From a virus, in the IMG/VR virus record IMGVR_UViG_3300010370_007116, positions 1 to 33,182 of that record: DNA of 33,182 bases; one strand, 5' to 3'. A program made the position numbers and the translations under genes. Below the pieces are notes generated by a model, which did not search any database, was not told the DNA's origin, and saw only the letters and a program-made list of their open reading frames with translations. This document shows positions 1-18,049 of this stretch, one piece after another. Numbering within the stretch: position 1 is the first letter of the stretch; each line of letters begins with the position of its first letter.

Positions 1-71
1 CATTGGTCGAGTGGCTTAGGCGCAAGTCTGCAAAACTTGCTACGAAGGTTCAATTCCTTCATGTTCCTCCA
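1..71 (+). tRNA. tRNA-Cys(GCA), 5' end cut by window
   Basis: The anticodon loop CTGCAAA sits in a CAAGT/ACTTG stem, giving anticodon GCA. The 3' acceptor strand ATGTTCC, discriminator T and encoded CCA are present. Only the last three bases of the 5' acceptor strand (CAT) lie inside the window, so about four bases are missing upstream. Confidence 0.9.
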
Positions 72-77
72 TCTTTT

Positions 78-169
78 GGGTGAGCGGCAGAGACGGTGGT
101 TCTGCGGCAGACTGTAAATCTGTTCCCTCTGGGTAAACATTGGAGGTTCGAATCCTTCCTTGCCCACCA
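78..169 (+). tRNA. tRNA-Tyr(GTA)
   Basis: Acceptor GGGTGAG pairs with CTTGCCC, followed by A and an encoded CCA. The anticodon loop CTGTAAA gives GTA. The variable region is long, as expected for a class II bacterial tRNA-Tyr, and the T-loop is the normal TTCGAAT. Confidence 0.9.
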
Positions 170-176
170 AAGTTGT

Positions 177-251
177 TGGTTAGTAGCTCAATGGTAGAGC
201 ATCCGGCTGTTAACCGGACGGTTACAGGTTCGAGTCCTGTCTAGCCAGCCA
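177..251 (+). tRNA. tRNA-Asn(GTT)
   Basis: Acceptor TGGTTAG pairs with CTAGCCA, then G and CCA. The loop CTGTTAA in a CCGG/CCGG stem gives GTT. The D-arm and TTCGAGT T-loop are canonical. Confidence 0.95.
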
Positions 252-255
252 TTTT

Positions 256-375
256 ATTCCTACTATGTGGATATGCGACTGTAATATCTAACTGTAGGCA
301 GGGAAGCGCGAAATGAAGGTAAAGGTTGCCGCCCAAGGAAGAGCGGTTGTAAAACGAACAAATGCCTTTAGTGAT
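256..375 (+). ncRNA. possible structured RNA between tRNA genes
   Basis: No open frame or tRNA signature is visible in the 150-base gap between tRNA-Asn and tRNA-Ile. Complementary segments are present: CCTAC...GTAGG enclosing GATAT...ATATC, then TAAAGG...CCTTTA enclosing CCGC...GCGG. This could be a processed spacer, a decayed tRNA or a small RNA. Evidence is only short inverted repeats, so the call is weak. Confidence 0.25.
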
Positions 376-400
376 TTTCAAACGGTCCTATAAGTTTCTT

Positions 401-476
401 GTTTCTGTAGCTCAGTTGGTAGAGCACTCCCCTGATAAGGGAGAGGTCGTTGGGTCGGGACCAACCAGAAACACCA
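401..476 (+). tRNA. tRNA-Ile(GAT)
   Basis: Acceptor GTTTCTG pairs with CAGAAAC, then A and CCA. The loop CTGATAA in a CTCCC/GGGAG stem gives GAT. The T-stem GTTGG/CCAAC is perfect, but the T-loop reads GTCGGGA, so the near-universal T at position 54 is replaced by G. Confidence 0.93.
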
Positions 477-479
477 AAT

Positions 480-554
480 GCTCCTAAAGCATAAGTGGCG
501 ATGCACGGGATTTGTAATCCTGAGAACCTGGTTCGATTCCGGGTGGGAGCACCA
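480..554 (+). tRNA. tRNA-Thr(TGT)
   Basis: Acceptor GCTCCTA pairs with TGGGAGC, then A and CCA. The loop TTTGTAA gives TGT. The T-loop TTCGATT is normal. It follows tRNA-Ile by only three bases, so the two are probably cut from one transcript. Confidence 0.93.
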
Positions 555-562
555 AATATTGG

Positions 563-590
563 TTGACATCACTGGAAAATGTGATATATA
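563..590 (+). promoter_or_regulatory. sigma70-like promoter inside tRNA array
   Basis: TTGACA (563-568), a 16-base spacer and TATATA (585-590). The tRNA-Ile(TAT) gene starts 16 bases after the -10 box, consistent with transcription of the second part of the array. Confidence 0.6.
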
Positions 591-605
591 GATATTATGA
601 AGTTT

Positions 606-708
606 GGGGGTATGGTGTAAAGGTTAGCACGCGGGTCTTATACACCCGACCGTAAAGGAGCCGGCAGATTACCGGGTGGTCTTGGTTCGAGTCCAAGTAC
701 CCCTACCA
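606..708 (+). tRNA. tRNA-Ile(TAT) with anomalous variable region
   Basis: Acceptor GGGGGTA pairs with TACCCCT, followed by A and CCA. The anticodon stem CGGGT/ACCCG encloses CTTATAC, giving TAT for AUA codons. The T-arm CTTGG-TTCGAGT-CCAAG is perfect. Between anticodon stem and T-arm lie about 34 bases instead of 4-5. They contain a CCGG-CAGATTA-CCGG hairpin nested in ACC...GGT. Class I tRNA-Ile should not have a long variable arm, so this is an insertion or a divergent class II-like arm. The anticodon call is firm; functionality is uncertain. Confidence 0.75.
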
Positions 709-721
709 TGTCTTTGTTTGA

Positions 722-788
722 TCTGGATACGAATTATCGAAAGAGGCGTAGCAATGCCAGACAACATTCGAGCCAAGGCTTGAGGCTC
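722..788 (+). ncRNA. possible structured spacer RNA
   Basis: The gap between tRNA-Ile(TAT) and tRNA-Gly holds two inverted repeats: TCTGG (722-726) with CCAGA (757-761), and GAGCC (770-774) with GGCTC (784-788). No frame or tRNA signature is seen. It may be only a processing spacer. Confidence 0.2.
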
Positions 789-797
789 AGCTATTTT

Positions 798-873
798 GCG
801 GGTGTCGCATAGCGGCTATTGCACTTCGTTGCCATCGAAGTTGCCATGGGTTCGAGTCCCATCATCCGCTCCA
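798..873 (+). tRNA. tRNA-Gly(GCC)
   Basis: Acceptor GCGGGTG pairs with CATCCGC, then T and CCA. The loop TTGCCAT in a CTTCG/CGAAG stem gives GCC. The T-loop TTCGAGT is normal. Confidence 0.93.
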
Positions 874-876
874 GTT

Positions 877-973
877 TCAAAGACTAGCCAGATTAAATGG
901 GCTCTCTGGCTTCAAGATGACTGCTGGTAAAACCGATAAAACCACCCATGGTTTGCAGGGCTCTGGTCTTTGA
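877..973 (+). ncRNA. orphan structured RNA, closed by 12 bp helix
   Basis: TCAAAGAC (877-884) pairs perfectly with GTCTTTGA (966-973), and AGCC (886-889) with GGCT (959-962). Inside, ATGGG (897-901) pairs with CCCAT (945-949), with a further GGT/ACC hairpin around 926-934. The whole 97 bases therefore fold as one closed domain directly after tRNA-Gly. There is no anticodon arm, T-loop or CCA, so it is not an ordinary tRNA. No family is recognised. Confidence 0.5.
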
Positions 974-980
974 TACTTTT

Positions 981-1160
981 CTATCTAATATATGATAGTG
1001 ATTGTATTCGATTCAAGAACTTGGTTCTTCTTTTGACTTTTGATTTTTGTGACTGTATTTCACACAATCTGGTGCAGTATTGATTCTTCTTCTCTCTTGT
1101 TGAGAAGATTTTATTGCACTGAATGCATTGATGATTGTATATCATACAAATAAGTCTCAT
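981..1160 (-). CDS. small zinc-ribbon protein (59 aa)
   Basis: The minus-strand frame reads MRLICMIYNH then a CxxC-x13-CxxxC array (residues 10-31: CIQC...YCTRLC) followed by a basic tail (KSKVKRRTKF). A CxxC...F...yC..xC pattern with a basic tail is common in small phage zinc-ribbon and HNH-associated proteins, which supports a real gene. It would lie opposite the tRNA array, between the orphan RNA and tRNA-Gly(TCC). No good Shine-Dalgarno is seen; the internal ATG at residue 6 is an alternative start. The longer frame reaching 1367 runs through tRNA-Gly(TCC) and is not credible. Function unknown; DNA or RNA binding is only an inference. Confidence 0.4.
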   Translation of the reverse strand: MRLICMIYNHQCIQCNKIFSTREKKNQYCTRLCEIQSQKSKVKRRTKFLNRIQSLSYIR

Positions 1161-1184
1161 ATGTTCGGTTGAGATATTTATTTT

Positions 1185-1258
1185 GCGGAATTGGCGTAGT
1201 GGTAACGTATCTGGCTTCCAATCAGAGGTCACCGGTTCGAGTCCGGTATTCCGCCCCA
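1185..1258 (+). tRNA. tRNA-Gly(TCC)
   Basis: Acceptor GCGGAAT pairs with ATTCCGC, then C and CCA. The loop CTTCCAA in a TCTGG/TCAGA stem gives TCC. The T-loop TTCGAGT is normal. Confidence 0.95.
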
Positions 1259-1274
1259 CAAATGGAGATTTGTC

Positions 1275-1454
1275 ATGTCTGATGCAAAAATCACTCTGAC
1301 TTATGAACGCAGCAACAGCAATCCTGATTATCCAAATAAGACTGTTACTGCTGTTATTAATCTTCATGGCGGTGAAGTTAAATCTGAAACTTTGATTGAA
1401 GAATTTAAAGATTTTCTTCGCTCGTGTGATTATGTTATTGAGTATAAAGAATAG
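1275..1454 (+). CDS. small hypothetical protein (59 aa)
   Basis: The frame starts at ATG 1275 with GGAG seven bases upstream and ends at TAG 1452-1454. The product begins MSDAKITLTYERS and ends DYVIEYKE. It is hydrophilic with alternating beta-like residues and no cysteine cluster or membrane segment. It sits between tRNA-Gly(TCC) and the two CAT tRNAs. I do not recognise the family. The good ribosome-binding site and the clean fit between two tRNA genes make it likely real. Confidence 0.65.
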   Translation: MSDAKITLTYERSNSNPDYPNKTVTAVINLHGGEVKSETLIEEFKDFLRSCDYVIEYKE

Positions 1455-1458
1455 ATAT

Positions 1459-1531
1459 AGCAGGGAGGACTGGAGTCCCGTTTAGGTTCATTCCCTAGAT
1501 TCCCATGGTTCGATTCCATGCTCTGCTTCCA
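1459..1531 (+). tRNA. tRNA-Met(CAT) or Ile2(CAT), short D-arm
   Basis: Acceptor AGCAGGG pairs with CTCTGCT, then T and CCA. The loop TTCATTC in a TTAGG/CCTAG-like stem gives CAT, with an unusual T at position 37. The T-arm CATGG-TTCGATT-CCATG is perfect. The D-region GGACTGGAGTCC folds with almost no loop. CAT could mean elongator or initiator Met, or an Ile2 tRNA after lysidine modification; sequence alone does not decide. Confidence 0.75.
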
Positions 1532-1533
1532 AT

Positions 1534-1605
1534 GGCGCTAGAACAGCTGTTCCATTCGATCTCATAAGTCGAAATGTGGTGGATCGTTACCACCTGGCGC
1601 CTCCA
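1534..1605 (+). tRNA. tRNA-Met(CAT) or Ile2(CAT), second copy
   Basis: Acceptor GGCGCTA pairs with TGGCGCC, then T and CCA. The loop CTCATAA in a TCGAT/GTCGA stem gives CAT. The D-arm is GAAC-AGCT-GTTC, lacking the usual G18G19. The T-stem GGTGG/CCACC is perfect but the loop is ATCGTTA (A54). It differs widely from the other CAT tRNA three bases upstream, so the two probably have different identities. Confidence 0.8.
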
Positions 1606-1628
1606 TTTTCCAACCAGAGGTTACGATT

Positions 1629-2219
1629 ATGTGTTACAACGTTCATGAGAATCTAAAGTCTCTTGATGTTGCACAGCTTCAAGAGCTTTCAAAGCAATCC
1701 AGACTACCATATTCCGTCTGTCTGATGAATCTTGAATACGACTTGAATATCGGTAACTGCATTCGATCTGCTCATATCCTTGGCGCTGAGCGAGTCTTTA
1801 TCTTCGGTAAGCGCAAGTATGATTCTAGGTCAACTGTCGGTGCTCATAACTATATCGATGTTGTGAAATATGATTTTCAGGAACTGACTGATGAGTCAGT
1901 GATTGGTGCAAAGTTTGAGGAGATGGTAACTTCTTATAAGCTTCGTCCAATCATCATCGAAAAGACCGATATCTCAGAAGATATTAGGGACATTCCTAAA
2001 TTCTCGATGACAGATAATATGTGTCTTGTCTTTGGTAATGAGCAGAATGGCATTCCAGAGTGTATCTCATCTAAGTATCCATGCTATCATATCAATCAGC
2101 GTGGTGTCATTCGGTCAATGAATGTTGCTTCTGCTGCAGCTATCGCCATGTATGAGTTTTCTAACAAACTTGAGCGGATATATAAGAATACTACAACATA
2201 TAAAAAGGCGTGGGTCTAG
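1629..2219 (+). CDS. TrmH/SpoU-type RNA 2'-O-methyltransferase
   Basis: Predicted S-adenosylmethionine-dependent ribose methyltransferase of the SPOUT superfamily (196 aa). All three SpoU motifs are visible: N40-x2-N43-x2-R46 (NIGNCIRSAHILGA), the knot motif LVFGNEQNGIP (residues 133-143, E138) and IRSMNVASAAAIAMYE (161-176, N165). These residues bind RNA and SAM in the trefoil knot. The gene directly follows two CAT tRNAs within the tRNA array, so a tRNA substrate is the natural inference; Gm18 (TrmH) or wobble (TrmL) specificity cannot be told. ATG 1629 is used; upstream CAGAGG serves as ribosome-binding site. The stop codon TAG forms part of an inverted repeat with 2315-2321. Confidence 0.9.
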   Translation: MCYNVHENLKSLDVAQLQELSKQSRLPYSVCLMNLEYDLNIGNCIRSAHILGAERVFIFGKRKYDSRSTVGAHNYIDVVKYDFQELTDESVIGAKFEEMVTSYKLRPIIIEKTDISEDIRDIPKFSMTDNMCLVFGNEQNGIPECISSKYPCYHINQRGVIRSMNVASAAAIAMYEFSNKLERIYKNTTTYKKAWV

Positions 2220-2428
2220 AAGCGTGGTCAGGCGTTCGTAAGAGTCCAGGCTCAGTGGTGCTGAATAATGGGCGTGATCAGCTACCTCGAAAGAGATGCG
2301 ACATCCTTGATAAACTAGACCATATGTTGTAATACCGCGCTAGGTCCGTCGCGGTCTATAAGTCCTTCGGGGTTAGCTCTAGCGCAGGGGTCCAAACTCT
2401 TACACGCTAGAGTGAAGCTAACGGACCT
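2213..2428 (+). ncRNA. orphan structured RNA with predicted pseudoknot
   Basis: The 236-base gap before the aldolase gene is full of perfect complementarities. GGTCTAG (2213-2219) pairs with CTAGACC (2315-2321). ACCGCG (2334-2339) pairs with CGCGGT (2350-2355); the loop of this hairpin holds AGGTCCGT (2342-2349), which matches ACGGACCT (2421-2428). GTTAG plus CTCTAGCG (2372-2384) pairs with CGCTAGAG (2405-2412) and CTAAC (2418-2422), leaving a five-base bulge. The 3' part (2334-2428) is therefore a compact pseudoknotted or switchable RNA. It could be a free small RNA or a leader controlling the gene at 2456. No family is recognised. Confidence 0.55.
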
Positions 2429-2455
2429 GCCAATTCACAAAACAATGGGAAAAAC

Positions 2456-3094
2456 ATGCTAGAAACTTGCTGTGATCTGATGTTTGAGGCTTATGAGAAG
2501 GGTTTAATGACATCCAGGGATGGTAATGTATCTCTGCGTTATCGCGAACATGCTCATTTCTTCCTTTCGCCAACAAATATTCGCAAACACACCCTGCAGC
2601 CCGATCAGTTCAAGAAGCTACGGACTTATGTTCTTAACGACAGGCGACCCATCGAGCTTCAATATACAGATATCTCAGCGAATCTGAAACCAAGTGGTGA
2701 GTTTCCTCTACATTTCATGCTACAAAAAGTTCTGCCACCAACTTGGGAAACTCGAGTAGTGATGCATGTGCATTCAACCTATACTGTTGCTGCTATGCAT
2801 GCAGGCATCAAGCTTGATAATCTTAAAAACTATTTCCCTGAGATTGCTCGCTATACAAGAGTTGCTCCCAGCACCAATGATGTCCCTCCCATTTCTTGGG
2901 ACCTTGCTGAAGCATGTATGAAGAACATGCAGCTAGATGAAGAGACTGGCGTGACTGAATATGATATTGTGGGTATCAAGGGTCACGGTGTGGTTTCTGT
3001 TGATAAGACCCCCTGGCGTGCATACGAGCATATTGAACGACTAGAACATATCTGCAAAATTGTTCTAACTAGTGGAAATTATAGGGGTATTTGA
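2456..3094 (+). CDS. class II aldolase/adducin-family protein
   Basis: Predicted zinc-dependent class II aldolase fold (212 aa), related to L-fuculose-phosphate aldolase and AraD. Visible residues: GNVSLR (23-28) and SPTN (38-41) of the phosphate pocket, the SGE region with E82, the zinc pair H104 and H106 (MHVHSTYTVAA) and the third ligand H177 (GHGVV). All metal ligands of the family are present, so it may be active; the substrate is unknown. The start follows a weak GGGA site, and the gene lies just after the structured RNA. Its TGA is separated by one base from the pstS ATG, indicating translational coupling. Sugar-phosphate metabolism in a phage is unusual; a recruited non-enzymatic role is also possible. 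Confidence 0.85.
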   Translation: MLETCCDLMFEAYEKGLMTSRDGNVSLRYREHAHFFLSPTNIRKHTLQPDQFKKLRTYVLNDRRPIELQYTDISANLKPSGEFPLHFMLQKVLPPTWETRVVMHVHSTYTVAAMHAGIKLDNLKNYFPEIARYTRVAPSTNDVPPISWDLAEACMKNMQLDEETGVTEYDIVGIKGHGVVSVDKTPWRAYEHIERLEHICKIVLTSGNYRGI

Positions 3095-3095
3095 T

Positions 3096-3959
3096 ATGAA
3101 TCGTCGTAACTTCATCACAACTTCTCTGGCTATTCCTTGTGTGTTATTTTCCAATTCTTCTCTAGCACAACAGGTTAGTATTACCGGAGCTGGTGCAACA
3201 TTCCCAGCCCCTCTCTATCAACGCTGGGCGCAAGATTTCCGACAGGTTTCAGGAATTCAAGTCAATTATCAGTCAATTGGTTCTGGTGCCGGTATCAATC
3301 AGATTCGAGCTAGGACCGTTGATTTTGGTGCTACTGATGCACCGCTTACTGATCCTGGGGACATGTTCCAGTTTCCTATGGTTGAAGGTGAGGTTGTTGC
3401 TGCGTTCAATCTCCCTGGTATTCGCAATATCAATCTTACTCTAGAAATTGTTTCTAGGATTTATCAGGGAGAGATTACTCGCTGGAATCATGCCGATATT
3501 GTTGCATTGAATCCGGGTGTTCGACTTCCAAACATGGTGATTTCTCCCATCTATCGGGCGGATGGATCGGGCACTACCTTTGTTTGGACCAGTGCAATGA
3601 AGAGTTCTGGCTTCTGGCAAGATGTTGGTGTTTCTGTTGCATGGAAGGTTGGTCAGGGTGCTCGTGGTAATGAGGGTGTTTCTAACATGGTCTCTCGTTC
3701 TCCAGGCGCAATTGGTTATATTGAAATTGCATTTGCCAAGATCAATAATATTTCCATGGCAAAGCTTGAGAGAGAAGTTCGTGCTAGAACATTCATTCTT
3801 GTTCATAAAAATAATGTCAGTAAACCAATTAGGGGAGCTCTAAATAATTATTTTGAATGGTGTTATACAAAGGGTGGTGAAGCAGCCAGGCGACTTTATT
3901 ATACACCTCTACCTGATGTAGAATATCAGCATATTCTACAGGAGCTTAAAAAACTATAA
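3096..3959 (+). CDS. pstS: PstS-like periplasmic phosphate-binding protein
   Basis: Phosphate ABC-transporter substrate-binding protein (287 aa), a known auxiliary metabolic gene in marine T4-like phages. The product starts MNRRNFITTSLAIPCVLF, a twin-arginine-like signal peptide with a likely cut after SLA. PstS signatures follow: GAGATFPAPLYQRW (31-44), IGSGAG, DFGATDAPL (77-84) and RADGSGTTFVWT. ATG 3096 is preferred over 3072 because it carries AGGGG upstream and begins the signal peptide. It would bind phosphate in the host periplasm and feed the host PstCAB system, supporting phage DNA synthesis. No PhoB box was identified with certainty. Confidence 0.93.
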   Translation: MNRRNFITTSLAIPCVLFSNSSLAQQVSITGAGATFPAPLYQRWAQDFRQVSGIQVNYQSIGSGAGINQIRARTVDFGATDAPLTDPGDMFQFPMVEGEVVAAFNLPGIRNINLTLEIVSRIYQGEITRWNHADIVALNPGVRLPNMVISPIYRADGSGTTFVWTSAMKSSGFWQDVGVSVAWKVGQGARGNEGVSNMVSRSPGAIGYIEIAFAKINNISMAKLEREVRARTFILVHKNNVSKPIRGALNNYFEWCYTKGGEAARRLYYTPLPDVEYQHILQELKKL

Positions 3960-3976
3960 AAGAGATAAAAATCTGT

Positions 3977-4294
3977 ATGCCCTACATAAAATTCAGTACT
4001 ATAGAATTTACAGATATAGATACCAAAAAAATCTGTAAAACAATTTTAAAAGACATACAGATCTTAGAATATCACGTCATGCGCGATGATGAATATGCAC
4101 ATTATCTTAGAAAAATGATAGGTGCAAAAGCATCTGAATCTATTAAAGGATATTTTTCAGTAAATTATAAGATCTTACTTGGATTAAAAACTACATTTTG
4201 GTATTATACAGGTATAAATCCAAGTCATGTAATATTAGACTGCGATAAATTTGATGAGGAAATTAAAGTTAATATATTTGATCCTCTACAATGA
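3977..4294 (+). CDS. hypothetical protein (105 aa)
   Basis: The product MPYIKFSTIEF... is a small mixed-charge protein with no signal peptide or membrane segment. It has one potential amphipathic stretch (residues 40-60) and ends FDPLQ. Codon use and low GC match the phage background and are more AT-rich than the preceding pstS. The ribosome-binding site is weak (AGAGAT). It follows pstS by 17 bases and is followed at once by the tmRNA promoter. Family not recognised. Confidence 0.6.
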   Translation: MPYIKFSTIEFTDIDTKKICKTILKDIQILEYHVMRDDEYAHYLRKMIGAKASESIKGYFSVNYKILLGLKTTFWYYTGINPSHVILDCDKFDEEIKVNIFDPLQ

Positions 4295-4307
4295 CTGAAA
4301 ATAATGG

Positions 4308-4338
4308 TTGACTTCTGACCCATTGTATAGTATAAATA
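4308..4338 (+). promoter_or_regulatory. promoter of tmRNA (sigma70-like and T4 late-like)
   Basis: TTGACT (4308-4313), 17 bases, then TATAAA (4331-4336), which is also the start of an exact T4-type late octamer TATAAATA (4331-4338). Transcription would begin near 4345, close to the predicted 5' end of the tmRNA acceptor piece. The box could serve both early and late RNA polymerase forms. Confidence 0.7.
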
Positions 4339-4637
4339 AACGGTTGCTGATGATCTCAGTCAAATAAGTTGAGCAGGACCAGGGGGCAGCACCCTGCATC
4401 TCCACCAAATAACATGGCTATGACCTCTTGTTTTATACTACGCTGTAGCCCTTCTATATGGGGATGAAATAGGATCGACTGACGACAGTAAGGGTTGAAG
4501 TAGGCAATGGCGCGGAAGCTGCCTTAACGCAACAAAAACAATAAATGCAGCCAATGATAACGGTGCATTCGAGACTCGCCTAGCGGCTTGATCTTGATGG
4601 GCTTACGATTGTGCCTTGAAACAGAAACAATCGGCTA
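4339..4637 (+). ncRNA. ssrA: two-piece (circularly permuted) tmRNA
   Basis: The acceptor piece comes first and ends CATCTCC-A-CCA (4397-4407), with a T-arm CAGGG-GGCAGCA-CCCTG (4380-4396). A 52-base intervening segment follows. The coding piece begins GGGGATG (4460-4466), which pairs with CATCTCC over seven base pairs, then has GGATCGAC, the conserved tmRNA D-loop element. GACTGA (4477-4482) can pair with TCAGTC (4356-4361) to form helix P2. The tag frame starts at GCA 4547 and reads AANDNGAFETRLAA before TGA 4589-4591 and a second in-frame TGA 4595-4597. This permuted order and ANDN/LAA tag are typical of alphaproteobacterial ssrA. It would rescue stalled ribosomes and tag products for proteolysis. 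Exact ends are inferred; the T-loop lacks the TTC consensus. Host SmpB would be needed, as none is in the window. Confidence 0.88.
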
Positions 4638-4643
4638 TTTTTT
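4606..4643 (+). terminator. possible terminator or 3' hairpin of tmRNA
   Basis: CGATTGT (4606-4612) pairs with ACAATCG (4627-4633), followed by a run of six T (4638-4643) immediately before tRNA-Ser. The stem is AT-rich with a 14-base loop, so it may instead be a processing hairpin of the tmRNA coding piece. Confidence 0.4.
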
Positions 4644-4736
4644 GGAGAGTGAATCGGACAGGCGTGCCGGCTCCGCCTTGAAAGCGGTAGGTGCCTAGGG
4701 ATAGGCATGGTGATCGAGACAGCCCGCTCTCCGCCA
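4644..4736 (+). tRNA. tRNA-Ser(TGA)
   Basis: Acceptor GGAGAGT pairs with GCTCTCC, then G and CCA. The loop CTTGAAA with CCGC/GCGG gives TGA. A long variable arm TGCCTA-GGGA-TAGGCA confirms a class II tRNA-Ser. The T-loop is ATCGAGA as in the other two Ser tRNAs of the window, but the T-stem carries an extra base on the 3' side, leaving a bulge. Confidence 0.82.
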
Positions 4737-4752
4737 ATTTTAGGTGATGAAA

Positions 4753-4917
4753 ATGGATGATAATTATTCTTCGGCAATTCTAAAGCGTGCAACGTTTCAA
4801 GATGAATTGGTAAATATACTTAATACCACTCCTCTTGAATATCAGAATGAAGAATGGATAATTATTTCTAATTACTTTAAGAAAAGAATTGCTGAAATCA
4901 CTAAAAAGTATGATTGA
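4753..4917 (+). CDS. small hypothetical protein (54 aa)
   Basis: The frame starts at ATG 4753 with AGGTG eight bases upstream; an in-frame ATG at 4747 is closer to the same site and less likely. It ends at TGA 4915-4917, seven bases before tRNA-Pro. The product MDDNYSSAILKRAT...KKYD is polar and helical, with a basic C-terminus. It lies between tRNA-Ser and tRNA-Pro. Family not recognised. Confidence 0.6.
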   Translation: MDDNYSSAILKRATFQDELVNILNTTPLEYQNEEWIIISNYFKKRIAEITKKYD

Positions 4918-4923
4918 TTTTAT

Positions 4924-4998
4924 CTGGGTGTAGCTCAAAGGCAGAGCGCTTGGTTTGGGACCAAGAGGCTGAGATCTCGGAATTCTCCACCCGGACCA
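4924..4998 (+). tRNA. tRNA-Pro(TGG)
   Basis: Acceptor CTGGGTG pairs with CACCCGG, then A and CCA. The loop TTTGGGA in a CTTGG/CCAAG stem gives TGG. The T-stem has four pairs (GAGA/TCTC) and a loop that does not match TTCRANY. Confidence 0.85.
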
Positions 4999-5004
4999 CT
5001 TAAA

Positions 5005-5081
5005 TGCCTGTTAGTTTAACTGGTAAGAACACCAGACTTTGAATCTGGAGGTTGAGGGTTCGAGTCCTTCGCGGGCAACCA
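5005..5081 (+). tRNA. tRNA-Gln(TTG)
   Basis: Acceptor TGCCTGT pairs with GCGGGCA, then A and CCA. The loop CTTTGAA in a CCAGA/TCTGG stem gives TTG. The T-loop TTCGAGT is normal. Confidence 0.93.
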
Positions 5082-5087
5082 GTTTTT

Positions 5088-5161
5088 TGCCCTTTCGTAT
5101 AACGGTAGTACGGCAGACTCTGACTCTGCTTGTTGTGGTTCGAATCCATAAAGGGCAACCA
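5088..5161 (+). tRNA. tRNA-Gln(CTG)
   Basis: Acceptor TGCCCTT pairs with AAGGGCA, then A and CCA. The loop CTCTGAC in a GCAGA/TCTGC stem gives CTG. With the preceding gene it forms a TTG/CTG Gln pair. Confidence 0.9.
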
Positions 5162-5162
5162 A

Positions 5163-5170
5163 TATAAATA
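5163..5170 (+). promoter_or_regulatory. T4-type late promoter octamer
   Basis: Exact TATAAATA between tRNA-Gln(CTG) and tRNA-Arg, placing a transcription start close to the 5' end of tRNA-Arg. It would allow late expression of the downstream tRNA group. Confidence 0.5.
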
Positions 5171-5177
5171 AGCCTAT

Positions 5178-5261
5178 GCTCTCGTATCCGCCCTGACTAC
5201 GAATCAGGAGTTAAGGTAACTGGAAGGTAGATGCAGGTTCCGAATTCTGTCGGGAGCTCCA
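5178..5261 (+). tRNA. tRNA-Arg(ACG), aberrant: D-arm missing
   Basis: Acceptor GCTCTCG pairs with CGGGAGC, then T and CCA. The anticodon arm CCTGA-CTACGAA-TCAGG is textbook tRNA-Arg(ACG). Only seven bases separate acceptor and anticodon stem, too few for a D-arm, while about 24 bases lie between anticodon stem and T-arm. The T-loop has eight bases (TTCCGAAT). It may be a decayed, rearranged or highly divergent tRNA. Confidence 0.65.
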
Positions 5262-5264
5262 AGT

Positions 5265-5386
5265 TTGTGGTAAGGAAAGTTCATCGTGGCGCTGACAACT
5301 TTCGAAAGCGATGAAGCGGACTGATCATCCGTAAAAGGAGAATGGGCACCGTTTGAAATTAAACGGAGATACCTCACCTGCCACAA
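5265..5386 (+). ncRNA. orphan structured RNA in tRNA array
   Basis: TTGTGG (5265-5270) pairs with CCACAA (5381-5386), enclosing three local hairpins: TTCATCG (5280-5286) with CGATGAA (5309-5315); CGGA (5317-5320) with TCCG (5328-5331) around a seven-base loop; and CCGTTT (5349-5354) with AAACGG (5361-5366). The 122 bases form a multi-branched fold with no T-loop, anticodon or CCA. It sits exactly between tRNA-Arg and tRNA-Leu, so it is probably co-transcribed. No known family is recognised. Confidence 0.55.
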
Positions 5387-5393
5387 TTGATTT

Positions 5394-5470
5394 GCGCGTG
5401 TGATGAAATTGGCAAACATACTGGTCTTAGAAGCCAGGTTCTGGGGGTTCAAGTCCCTCCATGCGCACCA
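5394..5470 (+). tRNA. tRNA-Leu(TAG), short variable arm
   Basis: Acceptor GCGCGTG pairs with CATGCGC, then A and CCA. The loop CTTAGAA in a CTGGT/GCCAG stem gives TAG. The T-stem GGGGG/CCCTC is good. The variable region is only about five bases, although bacterial tRNA-Leu normally has a long variable arm. Confidence 0.85.
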
Positions 5471-5476
5471 TATTTT

Positions 5477-5554
5477 GCCCTTGTAGCCCAATTGGCAGAG
5501 GCGGCAGATTCAAAACCTGCTAATGTGTCGGTTCGAATCCGACTGGGGGCACCA
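5477..5554 (+). tRNA. tRNA-Leu(CAA), short variable arm
   Basis: Acceptor GCCCTTG pairs with TGGGGGC, then A and CCA. The loop TTCAAAA with GCAG/CTGC gives CAA. The T-arm GTCGG-TTCGAAT-CCGAC is perfect. Again the variable region is about six bases, unlike standard class II tRNA-Leu. Confidence 0.85.
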
Positions 5555-5563
5555 AGTTTTTAT

Positions 5564-5639
5564 GGTGGTTGTAGTGTAGAGGTCTGCATGTGAGTCTGTG
5601 AAACTCAAGGTATGGGATCATTACCCATCAATTACCCCA
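5564..5639 (+). tRNA. tRNA-His(GTG)
   Basis: An extra G at 5564 pairs with C73 (5636), the hallmark of tRNA-His. Acceptor GTGGTTG pairs with CAATTAC, then C and CCA. The loop CTGTGAA in a TGAGT/ACTCA stem gives GTG. The T-stem ATGGG/CCCAT is perfect but the loop is ATCATTA (A54). Confidence 0.9.
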
Positions 5640-5640
5640 T

Positions 5641-5715
5641 GGGGAATTAGTGCTAGTGGTAACACGTCGCCTTTGCACGGCGAAGTCCGGAGTTCGACTC
5701 TCCGATTCTCCACCA
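5641..5715 (+). tRNA. tRNA-Ala(TGC)
   Basis: Acceptor GGGGAAT pairs with ATTCTCC, then A and CCA. The loop TTTGCAC in a TCGCC/GGCGA stem gives TGC. The T-loop TTCGACT is normal. Only one base separates it from tRNA-His. Confidence 0.93.
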
Positions 5716-5720
5716 GTTAT

Positions 5721-5798
5721 GGCGCAGTCTTCTAATTGGACTAGGAAACCAGACTTTCAATCTGGACAATGCGGGTTCAAGTCCCGTCTGCGTCACCA
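5721..5798 (+). tRNA. tRNA-Glu(TTC)
   Basis: Acceptor GGCGCAG pairs with CTGCGTC, then A and CCA. The loop CTTTCAA in a CCAGA/TCTGG stem gives TTC. The T-arm GCGGG-TTCAAGT-CCCGT is near perfect. Confidence 0.93.
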
Positions 5799-5799
5799 A

Positions 5800-5807
5800 T
5801 ATAAATA
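5800..5807 (+). promoter_or_regulatory. T4-type late promoter octamer
   Basis: Exact TATAAATA directly after tRNA-Glu and 45 bases before the methyltransferase start codon at 5853, suggesting late expression of that gene. Confidence 0.55.
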
Positions 5808-5852
5808 TCGAGTGACAAATATCAGTTTTTAATCTTATAGGAATATTATAGA

Positions 5853-6446
5853 ATGTTTAAATTGAATATCACTGACGATAAAGGACTTCCTGGTCATCTA
5901 GGTGGTCATCAAAATGAAACCCATGTAGATAATGGAGCACTTGATTATCTAATCAATCGATTTGATATTAAGTCCTATCTTGATGTTGGATGCGGTCCTG
6001 GTGGTATGGTATCTCTTGCGGCATCAAAAGGTCTAGATGTTCTTGGGATCGACGGTGATTTTACACTTGATCGTGATGTTCCTGAAAGATTTGTTCTGCA
6101 TGATTATACAAAGGGACCAGCACCTATTGGTGATAGACTATTTGATGTAGCTTGGTCATGTGAATTTCTAGAACATGTTGAAGAAAAATACATGGATAAC
6201 TACATGGATTCTTTTCTTCATTGCAAACGAATTGTTGTAACTCATGCTTTTCCTGGGCAAGGTGGGCATCATCATGTAAATGAGCGAGAACCTAATTATT
6301 GGTTTCAACAATTTGGAAAGAGAGGATTTCTACTAGATATGAATGCTACTGATGGCATTCGAGCTGCTAGTACAATGGAACAGCGCTATATTAGAACAAG
6401 CGGAATGGTATTCTTCAATTCAAATCTGAATTGGCAAGTAGTTTAA
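5853..6446 (+). CDS. class I SAM-dependent methyltransferase
   Basis: A Rossmann-type methyltransferase of 197 aa. Motif I is YLDVGCGPGG (42-51), the acidic residue closing beta-2 lies in VLGIDGD (63-69), and WSCEFLEHVEE carries the motif-IV-like region. The N-terminal GHLGGHQNETHVDNGAL and GQGGHHHVNEREPNYW resemble FkbM- or class-11-type phage methyltransferases whose substrates are unknown. It stands alone between tRNA-Glu and tRNA-Asp, preceded by a late promoter octamer and AGGA. Its position invites a tRNA role, but nothing in the sequence proves it; DNA, protein or glycan targets are equally open. Confidence 0.85.
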   Translation: MFKLNITDDKGLPGHLGGHQNETHVDNGALDYLINRFDIKSYLDVGCGPGGMVSLAASKGLDVLGIDGDFTLDRDVPERFVLHDYTKGPAPIGDRLFDVAWSCEFLEHVEEKYMDNYMDSFLHCKRIVVTHAFPGQGGHHHVNEREPNYWFQQFGKRGFLLDMNATDGIRAASTMEQRYIRTSGMVFFNSNLNWQVV

Positions 6447-6452
6447 GTTTTT

Positions 6453-6523
6453 GGTCCTATAGTTTAATGGTAGAACGCAGGTCTGTCTAACCTGTCGCGG
6501 GAGTTCGATTCTCCCTAGGATCG
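6453..6523 (+). tRNA. tRNA-Asp(GTC), no encoded CCA
   Basis: Acceptor GGTCCTA pairs with TAGGATC, discriminator G. The loop CTGTCTA in a CAGGT/ACCTG stem gives GTC. The T-loop TTCGATT is normal. The next bases are TAT, so CCA must be added by the host enzyme, unlike the other tRNAs here. Confidence 0.92.
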
Positions 6524-6526
6524 TAT

Positions 6527-6972: not shown

Positions 6973-7021
6973 GCATCAATAAATAACCCACTTGAAATTA
7001 AATTTGAAGGGTGTGGGATAT

Positions 7022-7405
7022 ATGCATACAGTCAAGCCTCTAGGTAGGCATCTAATACTTGATCTATGGGGCGAGCATCTTTCGTTTCCATATTGGAATA
7101 TGGATTCTGCAGCCGCGGCTCTTAAGAAAGCAGCAAGTGCAGCAGGAACAACTTTTATGACTGAAAGATGGCATCATTTTGGAGACGGTCATGGATATAC
7201 AGGCGTAATTGTTTTGGCTGAATCTCATGTATCAGTTCACACATGGCCTGAAATTGGATATGCGGCTATAGATGCTTTTTACTGTGGTGACTGTGATCCA
7301 CAAAATAGTATACCTGATATAGTATCATTTTATAAACCGTATAAAATCGACAAGACATTTATCGAACGTGGGATCGGTCCCTCTGTAATCAAATCGGTAA
7401 TGTAA
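7022..7405 (+). CDS. speD: S-adenosylmethionine decarboxylase proenzyme
   Basis: Prokaryotic-type SpeD (127 aa from ATG 7022). It makes decarboxylated SAM, the aminopropyl donor for spermidine. It begins with the family signature LGRHLILDLWG and carries AESHVSVHTWPEIGYAAIDAFYCG. S68 (ESH) is the predicted pyruvoyl precursor cut after E67, with H73 and C88 spaced as in the Thermotoga-type enzyme (5 and 20 residues on). The upstream TTG at 6992 would add a non-conserved leader, so ATG 7022 is chosen. The protein is proenzyme-sized and should self-cleave into two chains. speD is a known auxiliary gene of marine T4-like phages; polyamines may neutralise packaged DNA. No speE is in the window. Confidence 0.93.
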   Translation: MHTVKPLGRHLILDLWGEHLSFPYWNMDSAAAALKKAASAAGTTFMTERWHHFGDGHGYTGVIVLAESHVSVHTWPEIGYAAIDAFYCGDCDPQNSIPDIVSFYKPYKIDKTFIERGIGPSVIKSVM

Positions 7406-9562: not shown

Positions 9563-10024
9563 ATGACTTATTGGAAGACATATAATTTTGATACTAGCAA
9601 TTTTGATCGCTTCTTTATAGGAGCTGATAGACTAGCCAAAAATCTAAAAGCAAATGCAGATTGGCTAGCAAATAATGTATCACAGACATATCCGCCTTTT
9701 AATCTTAAAAAAGTAGATGAAAACAAGTATGTAATCGAAATGGCTGTTGCTGGTTTTACCAAGCAGGACATCGAACTTACTCTTGATGATAATAAGCTAC
9801 TAATTAAGGGTAATATTCACTCAGATTCTAAAGATGAAAAATCGGAATTCCTTCACTGTGGAATTGCAAATAGAGCCTTTACACGTCAGTTTACTCTAGC
9901 TGACAATGTAGAGATTTATAATGCCGAATTGATTAATGGTATGCTTAAGGTCTGGCTAGAACATATTATTCCGGAAGATAAGAAACCAAGAAAAATTGAA
10001 CTTAAAGAAAAGAAAGCAAGTTAA
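9563..10024 (+). CDS. Hsp20 / small heat-shock protein
   Basis: IbpA-like ATP-independent chaperone (153 aa) that holds unfolding proteins and forms oligomers. After a phage-specific N-terminus, YPPFNLKKVDENKYVIEMAVAGF (about 55-77) begins the alpha-crystallin domain. GIANRAFTRQFTLADNVE and the A-x-L-x-NGML signature (about 130-138) follow, then the C-terminal IEL (I-x-I-type) anchor. Hsp20 genes are typical of marine T4-like phages. It has its own promoter and is followed directly by the DUF1127 gene, with no gap between stop and start. Confidence 0.93.
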   Translation: MTYWKTYNFDTSNFDRFFIGADRLAKNLKANADWLANNVSQTYPPFNLKKVDENKYVIEMAVAGFTKQDIELTLDDNKLLIKGNIHSDSKDEKSEFLHCGIANRAFTRQFTLADNVEIYNAELINGMLKVWLEHIIPEDKKPRKIELKEKKAS

Positions 10025-16628: not shown

Positions 16629-16820
16629 ATGGGAAATTATTATATTAAGAAAAATGATTCTCATAAATTTGAGGTCATGGAACGATCAACCGAACAATCG
16701 ATTGGTGTGTTTGCTGACTATAAATCAGCTCAAGAAATGTCAAAAAAGCTTAATAACGGTGCAGGATTTGATGGATGGACACCAACTTTTTTTCTTAAAA
16801 ATATAAATAATTCTATTTAA
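16629..16820 (+). CDS. hypothetical protein (63 aa)
   Basis: AGAGG precedes ATG 16629. The product MGNYYIKKNDSHKFEVMERSTEQSIGVFADYKSAQEMSKKLNNGAGFDGWTPTFFL... reads like a compact beta-beta-alpha fold (strand, strand, helix AQEMSKKL). Proteins with this look occur in many T4-like phages. It ends the replication block before the orphan RNA. Function unknown. Confidence 0.7.
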   Translation: MGNYYIKKNDSHKFEVMERSTEQSIGVFADYKSAQEMSKKLNNGAGFDGWTPTFFLKNINNSI

Positions 16821-16835
16821 AATCCATATAACTAG

Positions 16836-16843
16836 TATAAATA
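16836..16843 (+). promoter_or_regulatory. T4-type late promoter of orphan RNA
   Basis: Exact TATAAATA 11 bases before the first base of the closing helix of the RNA at 16854. The transcript would therefore begin at or just before the RNA's 5' arm. Confidence 0.6.
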
Positions 16844-16853
16844 GGACCAATGA

Positions 16854-16988
16854 AGTAAAGTTAGCTTGATCTAGACAAGCAGTGGCACAGGGGATAACCG
16901 AAAGGAATAGTCGAGATTACGGTGGGGTTCCGCTCGACAACTTTACTAATTGAATTCGGAGGGAGTTGGATCGAAAGGTCCAACTCCC
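16854..16988 (+). ncRNA. cloverleaf-like small RNA with own promoter and terminator
   Basis: AGTAAAGTT (16854-16862) pairs perfectly with AACTTTACT (16939-16947). Inside are GCTTG-ATCTAGA-CAAGC (16864-16880), a middle segment with ACC-GAAA-GGA, and GTCGAG (16910-16915) with CTCGAC (16933-16938), the latter stacked directly on the closing helix and containing CGG-TGGGGTT-CCG. AACC near 16896-16899 could pair with the GGTT of that loop. A late promoter octamer precedes it and a terminator follows. It has no frame, anticodon or CCA. The layout is that of an independent non-coding RNA unit; no family recognised. Confidence 0.7.
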
Positions 16989-16993
16989 TTTTT
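16961..16993 (+). terminator. rho-independent terminator
   Basis: GGGAGTTGGA (16961-16970), eight-base loop, TCCAACTCCC (16979-16988), then TTTTT. It ends the replication block and the small RNA. Confidence 0.95.
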
Positions 16994-16994
16994 G

Positions 16995-17002
16995 TATAAA
17001 TA
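16995..17002 (+). promoter_or_regulatory. T4-type late promoter octamer
   Basis: Exact TATAAATA immediately after the terminator and 37 bases before the GTG start at 17039; it would open the late structural module. Confidence 0.65.
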
Positions 17003-17038
17003 TATTGAAAATATCTTTTATTTGAGGTAATTATAACT

Positions 17039-18049
17039 GTGGCTACTCTAGCTCAAAGAACAACTGATGGATCTGATTCTTTCGACAAGTATGTTAAAAG
17101 AAATCCTAGATTTAAAGAAACTCTTTTTCAAATTGAAAATAAACAAACAGCTCCTTTTCTTGTAAAAAAAGAAGCTAATTACCAACAAATAGCAATATTA
17201 CCTGAAAGTACTCAATTTAATATTATAGATACTAACTTTCATATATTAAATAATATACGTTATGCAAAGGTTAAATATGGTTCAAAAGAAGGTTATATTG
17301 CACTTAATAAAATAAGAAAACCAACAGCTGGAAATGGAACAGCATATGAAGATGAGGTAGTGGATGCACTAAATACAATGTTTAGCCAATTTGGAGTACC
17401 TGTTACAATCAAAGTTGGCAATAAATTGTATAAAAATATGAGTTACGCTGTTAAAGTAGATACTCAGTTAAAAAGAGCTGGTGGTTCTAAAAGTGATCCA
17501 AAAGCTGATATTATTATTTGTAAAGACAAAAAAAATCCGCTTGCTTCTGACTCAATATACATATCACACAAGAAAGAAGGCGGGCCTGAAGTTTTTCAAC
17601 AATATGGTGGACTTACGGAATCGGCAAGTAGTAAAATCTATAATCATCCAGAAGTACAAGAATTTCTCAAACAAACAAGTGAATTTGTTATCGATAATAA
17701 ACTTACTAAACCACTGATGAAAAATATAAAAGATAAAAAACTCATAAATCTATCTATATATGGACCCGATTATGGTTCGAATTTTTCACTTCAACATGTT
17801 CAAATAATAGGTCAAGGTAAACCAAAATTAACAAAAATAAAAGATGATTATTACGATCTTGATTTTACCAGTCACATGAGTATTTCAGGTAATCTTTCTT
17901 ATTTCACTAATGGTTATTTACCAGTATTTGGTGCTACATATCGTGAGGGGAGAGGATTTACTATAAACGGAAAAAGAATAGAAGGAGTAAGGGTTGGGAT
18001 ATATCCAGCCAAACTCTTACAATCCAGATCTGGATTGGTTAAATTATAA
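17039..18049 (+). CDS. SH3-like plus possible nuclease-fold protein
   Basis: 336 aa with a GTG start supported by GAGG 12 bases upstream. Residues about 40-93 (NYQQIAILPESTQFNIID...YAKVKYGSKEGYIALNKIRK) read like a bacterial SH3 domain. Residues about 98-205 (NGTAYEDEVVDALN..., DPKADIIICKDKK, IYISHKKEGGPEVFQQYGGLTE) have the order E...D...(S)xK seen in PD-(D/E)xK-type nuclease folds; this is inference. It is the first gene behind the late promoter, so it is probably a virion or maturation protein. It resembles uncharacterised marine T4-like proteins. Confidence 0.75.
   Translation: MATLAQRTTDGSDSFDKYVKRNPRFKETLFQIENKQTAPFLVKKEANYQQIAILPESTQFNIIDTNFHILNNIRYAKVKYGSKEGYIALNKIRKPTAGNGTAYEDEVVDALNTMFSQFGVPVTIKVGNKLYKNMSYAVKVDTQLKRAGGSKSDPKADIIICKDKKNPLASDSIYISHKKEGGPEVFQQYGGLTESASSKIYNHPEVQEFLKQTSEFVIDNKLTKPLMKNIKDKKLINLSIYGPDYGSNFSLQHVQIIGQGKPKLTKIKDDYYDLDFTSHMSISGNLSYFTNGYLPVFGATYREGRGFTINGKRIEGVRVGIYPAKLLQSRSGLVKL

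Follow-up and report, generated by a model that had tools for sequence, protein, structure and literature searches.

A two-piece tmRNA has already been described in phage Melnitz, in a study that counted 402 tmRNA-bearing phages and 133 unique structures; the two-piece cases numbered 53, and 50 of these were marine or aquatic (PMC9004378). A further study lists 79 phage tmRNA sequences and is the source of the Rfam model RF04321 (PMC11915505). The Melnitz authors describe an early promoter for the tmRNA of that phage (PMC9004378). T4 and KVP40 use the octamer TATAAATA as late promoter and S-PM2 uses NATAAATA; for RB49 and S-PM2, early and late promoters that overlap have been proposed (PMC2984593). 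The stretch of DNA analysed here (the window) comprises the 33,182 nt of IMG/VR record IMGVR_UViG_3300010370_007116, and is a fragment of a T4-like phage that encodes a DNA polymerase (polB), UvsX, a DnaB-like helicase, a primase, thymidylate synthase, a class I RNR and a virion protein, all on the + strand. A preliminary description of this DNA had called a permuted tmRNA gene beside a tRNA array unusual, which was overstated, given the 53 public two-piece phage tmRNAs (PMC9004378) and the 89 IMG/VR stretches that match a single pattern.

Covariance models and direct reading place a complete, circularly permuted (two-piece) tmRNA gene at 4331-4636 of the window. The Rfam models tmRNA_permuted (RF04321; 100.7 bits, E 1e-18, gathering threshold 47) and alpha_tmRNA (RF01849; 81.5 bits, E 8.5e-21, gathering threshold 50) both matched over their full length, while the beta, cyano and standard tmRNA models were not among the over-threshold Rfam matches for the window. 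Chance is excluded by these E-values, and the sequence shows a permuted tmRNA gene of alphaproteobacterial type, intact and carried by a T4-like phage, the alpha type being assigned from the T-loop and the model scores. The preliminary description had proposed just such a gene and an Rfam check with the alpha_tmRNA and tmRNA models; its identification is upheld by matches over threshold to both RF01849 and RF04321, and its coordinates (4331-4637) fit the span between the late box and the last base of the 3' pseudoknot (4633). ARAGORN made no call for the gene. BLASTN of 4300-4660 against 50,697 phage records returned zero matches, which shows the low DNA similarity of tmRNAs and not absence. 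By plain minimum free energy folding, the complete gene showed no stability beyond expectation (z = +0.67), which is unsurprising for an RNA that is pseudoknotted and in two pieces; the evidence for structure comes from covariance models and covariation, not from folding energy.

All parts of the gene lie on the + strand. The acceptor piece (about 4343-4407) was delimited by the RF04321 and RF01849 alignments and by covariation of the T-arm and acceptor stem. The model alignments place in it the 5' strand of P2, with GUUGC (4343-4347) outward and GUUG-AG-CAG inward, followed by GGAC and the T-arm (4380-4396; CAGGG-GGCAGCA-CCCTG) with the alpha-type loop GGCAGCA, and direct reading gives the acceptor 3' strand CATCTCC (4397-4403), A4404 and an encoded CCA (4405-4407). 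The intervening segment of 52 nt (4408-4459), in which the model alignment finds the hairpin GGCTA/TAGCC, is expected to be removed from the transcript; the window's own version of this hairpin is no more stable than shuffles. The coding piece, placed by model alignments and sequence at 4460-4636 (3' end approximate), carries in order the acceptor 5' strand, a D-like loop (AAATAGGATCGAC), the P2 3' strand, the pseudoknot-1 region, the tag frame and the 3' pseudoknot. The acceptor 5' strand, GGGGATG (4460-4466), is directly followed by GGATCGAC; the 3' part of the acceptor (4397-4407) lies upstream of it, which is the permuted order. CATCTCC and GGGGATG form seven pairs, the third of which is G4462-U4401, corresponding to G3-U70, an alanine identity element. 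P2 pairs as GUUG/CGAC and CAG/CUG and, farther out, as GUUGC/GCAAU.

The tag reading frame AANDNGAFETRLAA (4547-4588), from translation and sequence, opens with the resume codon GCA (Ala, 4547-4549) and ends in RLAA, a hydrophobic AA end. Two UGA stops close it, the first at 4589-4591 and the other, in frame after one codon (UCU), at 4595-4597. Sequence and covariation then define an H-type pseudoknot of the alpha type (4599-4633), with stem A formed by GGGC (4599-4602) and GCCT (4613-4616), and stem B by CGATTGT (4606-4612) and ACAATCG (4627-4633), with AACAGAA between. The acceptor stem of seven pairs, with CATCTCC-A-CCA upstream, the sequence motif after GGGGATG, the P2 match and the open tag frame with tandem stops had all been noted in the preliminary description, and all are found in the sequence.

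Covariation was examined in phage loci recovered from IMG/VR with one DNA pattern, which matched 89 stretches; 28 non-redundant ones were kept, including the window, and as they were picked by an exact pattern, the set leans to that type. The pairing of each sequence with itself was compared with its pairing with others, using 5000 permutations and 27-28 non-redundant phage relatives. For stem B, the own-pair score was 17.2 against 9.7 across sequences, and none of the 5000 permutations did as well; the same zero count was obtained in this set for stem A, the T-arm, the acceptor stem and the intervening-segment hairpin, while the signal for P2 was weak in this simple test (94/5000 as good). 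Since the search pattern itself prescribes part of the acceptor stem and G3-U70, the independent tests are those of the pseudoknot, the T-arm and the intervening hairpin. In another phage tmRNA (L015, after 2134), the resume region and the final Ala codons seem much farther apart than in its relatives, which looks like an unusually long tag or an insertion.

Ahead of the gene is a composite promoter (4308-4338, + strand), with a layout that recurs at phage tmRNA loci: a -35 element TTGACT (4308-4313), a 17-bp spacer, and TATAAA/TATAAATA (4331-4338). We infer that TATAAA/TATAAATA doubles as a sigma-70 -10 element and a T4-type late box, giving an overlapping early/late promoter. The preliminary description had a late-type promoter with strong expression; the late-type box and a strong-looking promoter stand, but a late-only reading fits less well, and it was dropped once the 17-bp spacer count revealed the overlapping sigma-70 promoter. 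A simple sigma-70 scan of the window did not list it because its -10 is TATAAA.

The search pattern left the promoter out, so that the promoter comparison is unbiased by it. Of the 28 non-redundant phage genes, 15 (27/55 before thinning) have the octamer TATAAATA at a distance of 66-75 nt ahead of TCCACCA, against an expectation of 0.03 from its density in the same contigs, and it occurs nowhere else in the 160-nt upstream stretches of those genes. At the same place NATAAATA is found in 18/28, and the complete layout TTGAC-N17-TATAAATA occurs at 13/28 non-redundant phage tmRNA loci. Bacterial controls were drawn from the 30 best-scoring and 20 small-genome alphaproteobacteria plus the Nesciobacter locus, 41 being placeable by script; a pattern with the locus's own D-loop matched only Candidatus Nesciobacter, which was taken as the centre of the bacterial control and not as a claim about the host. 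At that place none of the 41 alphaproteobacterial genes has TATAAATA (one instance lies at -133), and the sampled -10 boxes are TATATT, TATAAT and similar. The difference between 15/28 and 0/41 has a Fisher p of 6.6e-8, a statistic that ignores relatedness. These sequence counts show the composite promoter to be conserved in phage and not in the sampled bacterial genes. It also stands before the Melnitz tmRNA, where TTGACA-17-TATAAATA can be read from the sequence. In the accessible, largely non-subscription literature, a phage-specific composite promoter has not been pointed out for phage tmRNA genes. Elsewhere in the window (16629-17039), three TATAAATA boxes lie within 200 nt ahead of an ORF at 17039.

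Late control is argued from kinship, because the 33-kb fragment is without gp55. The late sigma family phrog_234 was detected in 7 of the 27 phage records searched, including a tmRNA contig with the composite promoter (G416, locus L048) and two relatives of 161-171 kb. A gp55-type late sigma is present in relatives G013-G017; relatives, and one tmRNA contig that has the composite promoter, also encode the capsid protein gp23. The 155-kb contig G411 (locus L033), which has the composite promoter, gave no match to phrog_234, phrog_12791 or the gp23 capsid family, and given this case the late box might in some phages be only a -10 variant. SmpB was not found in any of 11 phage records, the complete Melnitz genome included.

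The tmRNA gene lies inside a tRNA array (1-6524; 15 tRNAs by ARAGORN and more by Rfam), in keeping with the neighbourhood first reported for it. A tRNA-Ser(UGA)-like gene (4644-4736, + strand) starts 10 nt after the pseudoknot and is conserved at 2572-2663 of the related contig L093 (blastn 79%). It is probably co-transcribed with the tmRNA, whose 3' end could result from 5' processing of this tRNA. ARAGORN and Rfam both miss it, and a permissive Rfam scan of 4596-4780 returned only chance-level matches to TtnuCD3 and sX4. By eye, a single base bulges from its T stem at an identical position in the window and L093 copies, and pairs in this stem are changed on both sides (GGUG/CAgCC versus GGGC/GCaCC). 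Cargo genes stand between the tRNAs at 1629-4294, coding for a SpoU-type RNA methyltransferase (1629-2219), a class II aldolase (2456-3094) and a PstS-like phosphate-binding protein (3072-3959), and genes for S-adenosylmethionine decarboxylase and Hsp20 lie at 6992-7405 and 9563-10024.

L093 is among the closest relatives (UvsX 83%) and has both the tRNA array and the tRNA-Ser in common with the window, but no tmRNA was found in its 59 kb, and a 214-aa ORF stands at the tmRNA place. Over 1820-2580 of L093 there is an apparent 5' half of another tRNA-Ser(UGA), then TATAAATA and this ORF. The ORF has no Pfam match; it may be a homing-type nuclease, the arrangement being as if an insertion had cut a tRNA gene. 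The three T4-like UvsX relatives found to carry a tmRNA (G015, G017 and G019) all have beta-type copies, which by sequence type suggests that alpha and beta copies were acquired separately, in more than one event. Judged from the window, L093, L071 (described below) and Melnitz, the gene sits at differing sites and comes and goes among phages.

We consider, with a probability of about 0.8, that the locus specifies a working alphaproteobacterial-type tmRNA, which the phage controls by early and late promoters that overlap and which rescues ribosomes in the course of infection. From the position of the box, transcription would begin near 4343, where the outer end of P2 lies; the 5' end may therefore need no processing. 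Transcription would be driven early by host sigma-70 polymerase and later by polymerase with a phage late sigma of the gp55 type. Host enzymes would excise 4408-4459, with RNase P cutting at 4460 and endo- and exonucleases making the CCA end, and the two resulting RNAs would stay joined via the acceptor stem and P2. Host AlaRS would charge the CCA end through G3-U70, and host SmpB would carry the charged tmRNA to stalled ribosomes, where translation would switch to AANDNGAFETRLAA and stop at UGA; the LAA end would make the product a target of host proteases, ClpXP for example. The phage probably uses its tmRNA to prevent ribosomes from being tied up during cleavage of host and phage mRNAs, supplementing rescue where the host supply is not enough.

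The late half of this proposal has a rival in the view that TATAAATA is merely a sigma-70 -10 variant and that expression is early only, as proposed for Melnitz. TTGAC at 17 bp makes a good sigma-70 promoter by itself, a plain TATAAT stands in the phage copies L007, L043 and L174, and no gp55 was detected in G411. Against it stand the concentration of the exact octamer and of NATAAATA at that place in phage genes and its absence there from all 41 bacterial ones, as do L071 and L049, which retain TATAAATA but have no TTGAC -35 with this spacing. The octamer is also biased to the coding strand, which carries all seven copies in the window (none on the other strand) and 12/12 in L093, with a bias in Melnitz as well. 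On balance, early-only expression seems doubtful.

Whether the RNA serves the phage at all bears on the remaining alternatives. Host DNA captured by recombination, for example at an ssrA integration site, might be transcribed as an idle passenger of no benefit to the phage, and both the patchy presence of the gene (L093 keeps the tRNA array with a different ORF at the tmRNA place) and a published suggestion of capture from a temperate phage (PMC9004378) lean that way. Such a passenger should decay, yet the frame, stops, CCA and G3-U70 are intact, stems change in compensatory fashion across the phage copies, and a phage-type promoter replaces the bacterial one; we regard idle carriage as very improbable. 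The RNA could instead act as a decoy or modifier, competing for SmpB or AlaRS or diverting stalled products with its own tag. There is precedent in the tag-less tmRNA-like RNA of mycobacteriophage DS6A, which inhibits endogenous tmRNA in E. coli (PMC11915505), and the tag pattern ANDNxxFExRLAA was absent from the GTDB genomes searched (one genome per species, 84,980 species). Against this, the whole tag frame and canonical LAA end are kept, unlike in DS6A, and the window tag is of the ordinary alphaproteobacterial kind, which leaves interference little credence beside a working rescue tmRNA.

The comparison yields a regulatory rule, that many phage tmRNAs have a promoter apparently readable both early and late; late reading is absent from the published Melnitz account, which has an early promoter only. 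A broader generalization, to which we give even odds, is that an overlapping early/late promoter, missing in the bacterial counterparts, is a common property of the alpha-type tmRNA genes in T4-like phages, so that trans-translation is under phage control for the whole infection and rescue is a dedicated phage function, not an early accident. If so, phages commit resources to ribosome rescue for the entire infection.

Among known systems, alphaproteobacterial RF01849 tmRNAs such as that of Caulobacter have the same gene order, T-loop type and D-loop AAATAGGATCGAC as the window, together with the 3' pseudoknot and an ANDN-type tag. The phage gene, however, largely lacks two features of the alpha model, its short hairpin and its CUAUGGCGAUAAAC stretch, and the sampled bacterial genes have TATATT/TATAAT-like -10 boxes in place of TATAAATA. 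The permuted tmRNAs of the T4-like relatives G015, G017 and G019 are of the beta type (RF01850, 95-126 bits). The Methylophilales phage Melnitz and related marine T4-like phages have a permuted alpha-type tmRNA, as in the window, and Melnitz shares with it the composite promoter and the lack of a detected SmpB. Its copy lies between PhoH/PDDEXK genes and gp33 with a glutamine riboswitch downstream, whereas the window copy lies in a tRNA array and Rfam found no riboswitch there; the intervening segment is far longer in Melnitz than the 52 nt of the window, and the tags differ. The closest phage tag, AANDNAPFESRLAA, is that of L071 (IMGVR_UViG_3300047560_001441), nearly the same as AANDNGAFETRLAA. 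L071 also has TATAAATA in front and the same pseudoknot, but it differs in the missing TTGAC -35, a stronger hairpin in the intervening segment and its genome site, near genes for PDDEXK, PhoH and a ssDNA-binding protein, which is the neighbourhood of the Melnitz tmRNA. The window locus is one more tmRNA in a known group, not a new kind, and what it adds is the composite promoter.
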